This document shows, piece by piece, positions 54,939 to 59,026 of a DNA stretch of 64,000 nt. How positions within the stretch are numbered: position 1 is the first letter of the stretch; each line of letters opens with the position of its first letter. The translations under genes were made by a program, and so were the position numbers. Where the stretch lies: contig JAPOXD010000019.1 of NCBI GenBank assembly GCA_026707285.1, positions 62,001-126,000 of the forward strand, read 5' to 3'. This stretch comes from Chloroflexota bacterium. GTDB lineage: Bacteria > Chloroflexota > UBA11872. The notes beneath the pieces are model-generated. The model made no database searches. It worked only from the letters and a program-made list of their open reading frames with translations, and was not told the DNA's origin.

Positions 54939-55778
54939 CTACCCCGCGACGCCGGCCTCAACCGGCTGCGAGGCGCGGTCGCCGCCGGCGAAGCCGCAGA
55001 ATTCCTCGTAGTCGATCAGCTCGGTGACGGTGGGGGAGTCGCCGCACAGCGGGCAGTCCGGGTCTCGCCGGAGCTTGAGCTCGCGAAACTCCATGGCCAG
55101 CGCGTCGAACAGCAGCAGACGTCCGGCCAGCGTGTCGCCCGTGCCCAGGATCACCTTGATCGTCTCCGTCGCCTGGATGAGGCCGACCAGGCCCGGCAGC
55201 ACGCCCAGCACGCCGGCCTCGGAGCAGCTTGGCGCCATCTCGGGCGGCGGCGGCGTTGGGTAGAGGCAGCGGTAGCAGCCTTCGCCCGGAACGAAGATGG
55301 TCGACATGCCCTCGAACCGCAGCACGCTGCCGTCCACCACCGGCTTGCCCAGCATGTACGCGGCGTCATTGACCAGGTAGCGCGTGGGGAAGTTGTCGCA
55401 GCCGTTCACGATCACGTCGTAGCCGCCCAGGACCTCCATCGCGTTTTCGGAGGTCAGCGGCTCGTTGTGCTCGATCACCTCCACGTCCGAGTTGAGCCCG
55501 GTGAGGGTCTCGGCCGCCGACCCGGTCTTGGGCAGCCCTACGCGGTCCTCGCGGTGCAGGATCTGTCGCTGCAAGTTGGAGCGATCGACGACGTCGAAGT
55601 CCACCACGCCGAGCCTGCCCACGCCGGCCGCAGCCAGGTAGTAGAGCACCGGCGAGCCCAGCCCGCCGGCTCCAATCGCCACCACGCTGGCGTTCAAGAG
55701 CTTCTGCTGACCGACGACGCCAACCTCCGGCAGCAGCATGTGCCGGCTGTATCGCTGAACCTGCTCGACGTTGAACAC
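54939..55778 (-). CDS. moeB: MoeB/ThiF-type adenylyltransferase
   Basis: 279 aa from GTG 55778. RYSRHMLLPEVG is the N-terminal family hallmark, IGAGGLGSP the ATP-binding loop, DFDVVDRSNLQRQ the next strand, NGCDNFPTRYLVND the substrate loop and the Cys pairs GCYRCLYP and DCPLCGD the zinc site. It activates the C-terminal glycine of a ubiquitin-like sulfur carrier (MoaD or ThiS). The rhodanese gene 45 bp upstream is the usual sulfur donor partner. No MoaD/ThiS is in the window. Confidence 0.88.
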   Translation of the reverse strand: MFNVEQVQRYSRHMLLPEVGVVGQQKLLNASVVAIGAGGLGSPVLYYLAAAGVGRLGVVDFDVVDRSNLQRQILHREDRVGLPKTGSAAETLTGLNSDVEVIEHNEPLTSENAMEVLGGYDVIVNGCDNFPTRYLVNDAAYMLGKPVVDGSVLRFEGMSTIFVPGEGCYRCLYPTPPPPEMAPSCSEAGVLGVLPGLVGLIQATETIKVILGTGDTLAGRLLLFDALAMEFRELKLRRDPDCPLCGDSPTVTELIDYEEFCGFAGGDRASQPVEAGVAG

Positions 55779-55823
55779 GCGCCTACCCTCGTTCCCTAGA
55801 CCTCAACATGCGCCGTGCCGGCC

Positions 55824-56177
55824 CTAGTGGCCGGCGGGCGGCTCCTCGGTGTCGTAGCCGGCGGCCTCCCAGGCCTCCATGCCGCCCTGCATGTTATAGG
55901 CCTGATTCAGCCCCAGGGCGGTCGCCATCTGCGTGGCGACGCCGCTGGTCTGGCCGACGTTGCAAATGAATAGGATCGGCTTGTCGGTCGGGATGGCCTC
56001 GGTGGGACGCGCCAGGATGTCTTCGAGCGGCACGTACTCCGCCCCGGGCATGGCCGGAAACGGGAACTGTGTCCGAACGTCGATCACCCGAACCTCGTCC
56101 TGCTCGACCAGCTTCTTGGCCTCGTGGACGTCGACTTCGTTGGAGGGCATTTGTGCTGCAGCCACGTTAAACCTCAC
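55824..56177 (-). CDS. Rhodanese-like sulfurtransferase
   Basis: 117 aa from GTG 56177 (ATG 56150 alternative). EVRVIDVRTQFPFPAMPGAEYVPLEDI and ILFICNVGQTSGVATQMATALGLNQAYNMQGGMEAW: the active-site loop is CNVGQTSG with the persulfide-forming Cys. Single-domain, cytoplasmic. It precedes moeB and likely supplies sulfur for thiocarboxylation of a MoaD/ThiS-type carrier, in Moco, thiamine or cysteine synthesis. Confidence 0.88.
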   Translation of the reverse strand: MRFNVAAAQMPSNEVDVHEAKKLVEQDEVRVIDVRTQFPFPAMPGAEYVPLEDILARPTEAIPTDKPILFICNVGQTSGVATQMATALGLNQAYNMQGGMEAWEAAGYDTEEPPAGH

Positions 56178-57994: not shown

Positions 57995-59026
57995 ATGCGG
58001 CGTCGCGTAGGAATCGCAGGAGCGCTCGCGGTCGGGATGGCCCTCGTCGTGCTGGGCGTCCTGGCGCTGGGGTGGGCGATTCGAGGCTCCGCGGATGCAC
58101 CCCAGATAGCGCGGCCGCCCGCTGACCTACCCGATCCGCACGAGCGAATGATGTTCGACTCGGCCTACGACCAACGCCTCAGCCGCGACGCCATCCCACC
58201 CATCTACCAGCCGCACTTCGTGGCCGCCGCCGTAGCGCCGCTCCAGCCGGACGAGCTGGTCATCGGGCTGGTCGTCGACGGCGAGGCGCGGGCCTACCCC
58301 GTCACGACGCTCAATCGGCGCGAGATGGTCAACGACGTCGTCGGCGGCACACCGGTGCTCGTCACCTGGTGACCGCTCTGCTACACTGGTCTCGTGCACG
58401 ACCGGCGGTTCGAGGGCCGGACCCTGGTCTTCGGCAATCAGGGCGCGCTGTACAAGACGGCCATGACGTGGTTCGACCACGGGACGGGCAGCATCTGGAG
58501 CCAGCCGATCGGCCGAGCCCTGGTCGGCGAACTGCGGGGCGCGACGCTCACCCAGATTCCCTCGACCCTGGATACCTGGGAGGGCTTCCACGCCCGGCAC
58601 CCCGATGCGCTGGTCCTGTCCAACGGCCTCGACGGACCGCGGCTCATCCTCGCGTCGCCGCGGGAGAACTGGGTGATCGGCCTTGCCCTTGGGGACGCGG
58701 CCGCAGCCGTCGACTTCAGCCACGCGCGTGCCGCGGCCCTGGTGCAGCTGACGGTGGGTAATGAGCCCGTGGCGGTCTGGGTCGACTCGACTACCGGAAC
58801 CGTGCGGGCTTATCTGCGGCGGGTGGCGAATCGCCTGCTGGATTTCGAGCCGGCGGGCGACGGCGCCCTGCGCGACCGCGAAACGGGATCTCTCTGGAGC
58901 GCGGCAAAGGGCCTGGCGCTCAGCGGTCCGCTTGCCGGCCAAGCCCTCAGCCCGGTGCCGTGGACGTCCGCGTTCGACTGGGCCTGGCGCGACTTTTACC
59001 CGAATTCCACGTTTATTGGGGCCTGA
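57995..59026 (+). CDS. DUF3179 protein with in-frame UGA (candidate selenoprotein)
   Basis: One continuous frame of 343 residues interrupted only by TGA at 58370-58372 (codon 126). Before it: an N-terminal membrane helix (ALAVGMALVVLGVLALGWAI), DAIPPIYQPHFVAA, LQPDELVIGLVVDGEARAYP and EMVNDVVGGTPVLVTW. After it: PLCYTGLVHDRRFEG, FGNQGALYKTAMTWFDHGTG and SIWSQPIGRALVGELRG. DUF3179 proteins carry VTYCPLCxTG here, so UGA replaces the first Cys of CPLC (UPLC). Downstream is intact for 217 codons. Alternatives are a nonsense mutation or sequencing error. Function of the family is unknown; a thiol-type redox role is inferred. Confidence 0.75.
58386..58405 (+). promoter_or_regulatory. Candidate bacterial SECIS stem-loop
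   Basis: CTGGTC (58386-58391) and GACCGG (58400-58405) form a 6-bp stem with one U-G pair around the loop TCGTGCAC. The stem begins 13 nt after the UGA and the loop 19 nt after it, within the range seen for bacterial SECIS elements. The loop lacks G in its first two positions, a weak point. Confidence 0.4.

Follow-up and report, generated by a model that had tools for sequence, protein, structure and literature searches.

An in-frame UGA in a DUF3179 gene of a Chloroflexota bacterium is very probably read as selenocysteine

Introduction

The DUF3179 gene described here raises a simple question: is the TGA codon that interrupts its reading frame a stop, or is it translated as selenocysteine (Sec)? 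The gene lies in a 64,000-nucleotide stretch of Chloroflexota DNA, here called the window. A sequence-only reading of this DNA proposed that the UGA replaces the first cysteine of a CPLC motif to give a UxxC motif, and that the gene is a candidate new selenoprotein. The question has practical consequences, in that standard annotation would cut the gene into two, an error that the Sec reading mends.

The word new requires correction. DUF3179 (pfam11376/PF11376, with the motif UxxC/T) is named among the known selenoprotein families in passages of two reviews, both of which credit it to Zhang & Gladyshev 2007, who worked on the Olavius algarvensis symbiont (PMC9312934, PMC13188914). Novelty is therefore wrong at the level of the family, and the well-supported position is that the family is known and the selenoprotein call is new for this gene. 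DUF3179 is mentioned rarely in the literature, and the passages that deal with it assign no function.

The gene and its reading frame

Re-reading of the frame bore out its description as a single frame with a lone TGA, and the six assemblies available for the genus agree. It runs from an ATG at 57995 to a final TGA at 59024-59026, a total of 343 codons, and the one internal TGA (58370-58372) corresponds to residue 126 of 343, in the context VTW-TGA-PLCYTG, with 217 codons downstream. The Pfam profile PF11376 (DUF3179) matches the read-through protein at 5e-64, with 217 bits against a curated cut-off of 27, in two stretches that cover most of its length, and the CPLC-type motif is invariant. 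The source genome (3.2 Mb, 97% complete) has four DUF3179 loci, of which only the gene in the window contains a TGA, the other three paralogues having none. The features of the locus are as follows.

57995 to 59026, plus strand: DUF3179 gene, very probably encoding a selenoprotein of 343 residues with Sec126 (frame, Pfam match, six genus genomes, dN/dS)
58004 to 58084, plus strand: hydrophobic N-terminal helix, residues 4-30, a probable membrane anchor (AlphaFold2 helix and composition, which suggest the topology)
58370 to 58372, plus strand: UGA codon, very probably Sec, that opens the UPLC motif (TGA in the genus and in another family, TGC or TGT in the sister genus)
58379 to 58381, plus strand: second Cys of UPLC (Cys129), probably the resolving Cys (invariant in 43 aligned homologues)
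58386 to 58405, plus strand: probable bacterial SECIS hairpin, with 5' arm 58386-58391, loop 58392-58399 (UCGUGCAC) and 3' arm 58400-58405

The surrounding gene order is the same in all six species: GFO/IDH/MocA, ThiF, rhodanese, Lon-like and DUF3179, followed by GFO/IDH/MocA and M24. No obvious functional partner adjoins the selenoprotein gene in this conserved neighbourhood. The ThiF-family and rhodanese genes, which precede the Lon-like and DUF3179 genes, are adjacent to each other (54939-56177, minus strand) and are 96-100% identical across the six species. A cytochrome P450 gene (59257-60564), between the DUF3179 gene and the next conserved genes, is peculiar to the window; in the other five species of the genus, the 10-kb neighbourhoods that were compared showed no sign of it.

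Conservation of the UGA codon and exchange with cysteine

The 343-codon frame, including the position of its TGA, is shared by all six species of the genus, with protein identities to the window of 83-92%. Pairwise dN/dS values within the genus are 0.15-0.32 before the TGA and 0.14-0.28 after it, being about 0.2 on both sides, so that constraint is equally strong on the two sides of the UGA. Decay downstream of the TGA, which would have told against the Sec reading, is hence not seen in these close relatives. A sequencing error concealing a TGC or TGT at 58370 is likewise countered, since separately assembled relatives carry TGA.

The sequence-only reading had suggested aligning orthologues and looking for exchange between Cys and UGA at this column. 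Such exchange is found: homologues in a sister genus have TGC or TGT at the Sec column, as against the TGA of the genus. TGA occurs again in all three orthologues, from three genomes, of another family of the same order, at about 47% protein identity. In a quick tree, calculated without L002, L034, L042 and L043, minus-strand matches whose translations had been made from the plus strand, the homologues from the genus, the sister genus and the other family form one clade with 100% SH-aLRT support. Most of the other sequences in the tree were chosen by their UGA pattern, and it therefore gives no count of Sec/Cys switches across the family. Among 43 aligned homologues the motif never varies at its P, its L or its second C. 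The gene thus presents an in-frame UGA that aligns with Cys and has conserved flanks, which is one of the marks by which bacterial selenoproteins are recognised.

In the short flanking stretches that were compared, no neighbours were found that the sister-genus loci have in common with those of the genus. In a different genome, a Cys-type DUF3179 gene (L268, G022:C42) has a TAG where the Tyr of RAY should be encoded, and is probably a pseudogene or a sequence error; it was rejected as a Sec-site case because the TAG sits at the Tyr codon and not at the Sec site.

The selenocysteine machinery

The window itself was reported to hold none of the Sec machinery, and a search of the remainder of the genome was proposed, absence of the machinery being grounds for abandoning the idea. 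The search found all of it. The source genome has SelA (495 bits), SelB (309 bits, above the cut-off), a tRNA-Sec (71 bits, also called by ARAGORN, with anticodon tca) and a SelD that has one in-frame TGA. The genome therefore contains selA, selB, selC and selD together, a further mark of a bacterial selenoprotein. The tRNA-Sec scores above the cut-off in all six members of the genus, and all 19 family genomes have SelA. SelD with an in-frame TGA is likewise present in 19 of 19 family genomes (L023 and L249-L266), with the TGA in the GUACK motif wherever this was read, and from their sequences these look like Sec-SelD proteins. The position of the TGA within GUACK gives the organism a further candidate selenoprotein, independent of the first and belonging to a well-known kind. 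The same codon also serves as a normal stop, ending both the DUF3179 gene and the Lon-like gene upstream.

The candidate SECIS hairpin

The stem-loop that had been noted 13 nt after the UGA is real, its 5' arm beginning at 58386. It has a 6-bp stem and an 8-nt loop, with 13 nt from UGA to stem and 19 nt from UGA to loop, and its minimum free energy (MFE) in the window is -9.3 kcal/mol, as against -10.6 to -11.5 kcal/mol in the other five species of the genus. The bSECIS model, as set out in a passage of one review, allows an upper stem of 4-16 bp, a loop of 3-9 nt, a UGA-to-loop distance of 16-37 nt and an MFE of -7.5 kcal/mol or below (PMC13188914), and the window hairpin lies within these limits for stem, loop, spacing and MFE. 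The strict loop rule of the model is satisfied only if U58392 pairs with A58398 to close the apex CGUGC. That fold lies 3.2 kcal/mol above the minimum, as computed on the genus consensus hairpin, and it would place G second in an apex C-GUG-C that resembles the apex of the wider family. The objection that the loop lacks an early G therefore holds for the plain 8-nt loop, but falls away if U58392 and A58398 pair in this non-minimal fold.

The clade to which the window belongs has the stem CCGGUC and GACCGG around the loop UCGUGCAC, the window itself having U at 58387 and so a G-U wobble. The homologues from the other family retain ACC GGU CUC GUG CAC/CAU GAC CGG despite only 47% protein identity, whereas the Cys homologues do not. 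Among 70 distinct UGA-containing sequences outside the genus, a hairpin is possible around codon 8 (mostly GUG) with an apex C-GUG-U, and the stem of the window clade is one base out of register with that of this wider family. In the wider set two pairs show compensatory changes, their members varying in concert: position 3 of codon 5 and position 1 of codon 11 can pair in 89% of sequences (47% after shuffling), and position 3 of codon 6 and position 1 of codon 10 in 99% (59%); neither value was reached in any of 2000 shuffles, which take no account of phylogeny and were applied to a set selected for UGA, and the pairing is lost when the partner is slid.

Against synonymous recodings, the hairpin region has a higher stability than expected in most UGA genes but not in the Cys homologues of the sister genus. 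The z score is -1.4 for the window, -2.0 to -2.5 for the other five species of the genus, -2.3 to -3.1 for the other family, and on average -2.2 in 67 other UGA genes, as against -1.0 to +0.9 for six sister-genus homologues with Cys. As many as 12.8% of recodings equal or exceed the stability of the window hairpin, which is less extreme than those of its relatives because of the wobble at 58387. On this evidence from sequence, the hairpin is with high probability a SECIS element. A Cys-type DUF3179 paralogue elsewhere (L216, G029) has a very stable hairpin after its CPLC codon, only 1% of recodings being as stable, and hence the contrast between UGA and Cys genes is not absolute; this hairpin perhaps reflects a past change from Sec to Cys, or chance.

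Distribution of UGA-containing DUF3179 genes

GTDB species genomes were scanned with a degenerate DNA pattern, x-T-x-UGA-P-[LF]-C-x-x-G, which gave at least 119 matches. Among the 80 matches listed, 75 proved to be DUF3179 genes that carry UGA at this motif, the other five being apparent chance matches. There are thus at least 75 further UGA-DUF3179 genes, in a set selected for UGA, and they come from at least nine phyla as judged by titles and tree labels: Chloroflexota, Zixiibacteriota/GN15, Acidobacteriota, Methylomirabilota (NC10), Rokubacteria, Marinimicrobia (Fidelibacterota), Calditrichota, Planctomycetota and Tectomicrobia. UGA-containing DUF3179 is therefore widespread, although almost nothing has been written about it. 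Some genomes of the class have several such genes (L208, L209, L270 and L271 of G024 and G025; L269 of G022), and among these are variants in which UTLC or UVVC replaces UPLC.

Predicted structure and possible mechanism

The AlphaFold2 model has a mean pLDDT of 88, with a helix at residues 4-30 and two apparent repeated β halves. The hydrophobic helix comes after a positively charged start, an arrangement that suggests an N-terminal membrane anchor with the remainder outside the cytoplasm. A sequence search of the PDB gave no entry that matches the DUF3179 protein.

A possible mechanism can be outlined. SelB carrying Sec-tRNA would bind the hairpin just past the UGA, and selenocysteine would be inserted at residue 126. 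The N-terminal helix would anchor the protein in the membrane with the two β domains outside, and Sec126 and Cys129 would be a UxxC couple, alternating between the selenolate/thiol and selenenyl sulfide states and serving as a redox site of the thiol-disulfide or peroxide type. The motif points to such an extracytoplasmic redox role, the likeliest of those considered, at about even odds. Confidence in any specific substrate is very low. A broader picture, which is speculative and on balance rather doubtful, is that DUF3179 may be a family of exported selenoenzymes, with a UxxC/CxxC redox hairpin and two Rieske-like β domains that have no iron-sulfur cluster. Within such a family, lineages would change between Sec and Cys, and the register of the SECIS could shift by one base while the GU apex was kept.

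Alternative explanations

If the UGA were an ordinary stop, or else a recent nonsense mutation or an assembly error, the locus would be a pseudogene or two separate frames, and there is indeed a 125-residue frame that stops at the UGA and a 210-residue frame that could start from a GTG at 58394, just downstream. This is hardly conceivable, given that six species assembled independently, and another family as well, carry the very same TGA, that selection is purifying on both sides, and that the residues PLC, encoded after the UGA and ahead of this GTG, are invariant. The UGA might instead be read by a normal tRNA, such as that for Trp, or be reassigned; a UGA followed by C, as here, is a leaky stop context. 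However, the column is Cys and never Trp in the sister-genus homologues and paralogues that were read, the genome has the full Sec machinery, the hairpin is selected in UGA genes, and TGA serves as a normal stop elsewhere in the window; the probability of either version is negligible. The comparative data led us to reject a pseudogene, an assembly error, two genes and ordinary read-through. Given the machinery, the conserved TGA, the exchange with Cys and the hairpin, the proposal that the UGA encodes Sec and gives a UxxC motif is strongly supported, and the gene almost certainly encodes a DUF3179 selenoprotein.

The remaining alternatives accept the selenoprotein and concern what its motif does. 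Metal binding is common for CxxC-type pairs, and DUF3179 has no known substrate or partner, so UxxC could be a metal or metalloid site rather than a thiol-disulfide redox pair. The 43 aligned homologues have no other invariant Cys or His to complete such a site, and Sec would usually be retained for redox chemistry; we therefore consider a metal site unlikely, though to be taken seriously. It is much less probable that DUF3179 is a Rieske-type iron-sulfur protein with the Sec or Cys as a cluster ligand. The best Foldseek matches are Rieske ferredoxins (E 3.6e-3, TM about 0.6 when normalised to the target), but no match has E below 0.001, profile comparison with Rieske sequences gave 6% probability, and by eye the hairpin that bears UPLC is not the one that holds the Rieske ligands. 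The CxH and CxxH ligand pairs that define Rieske 2Fe-2S proteins were not found conserved in the 43 aligned homologues. A Rieske identity is thus unsupported by fold search, profile comparison and PDB sequence search alike.

Comparison with known systems

Sister genera with Sec and Cys forms, and with the hairpin only in the Sec form, offer nature's own clean comparison for testing how the SECIS works, and comparison of the Sec and Cys forms could address the biochemical role of DUF3179. The Cys-type DUF3179 proteins (CPLC or CTLC) share the domain and the motif with the window protein, which very probably has Sec in place of Cys; the Cys homologues of the sister genus have no selected hairpin after the codon. 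The predicted β fold has a weak likeness to the Rieske ferredoxin domains (PF00355), but DUF3179 differs from them in having no 2Fe-2S ligands and no significant sequence similarity, and in having UPLC at a different loop. The closest resemblance is to the known DUF3179 selenoproteins (PF11376, UxxC/T), which belong to the same Pfam family and have Sec first in a CxxC-type motif. The window clade differs in being a separate subclade, whose sister genus has the Cys form, and in that its hairpin is one base out of step with that of most UGA-containing members.
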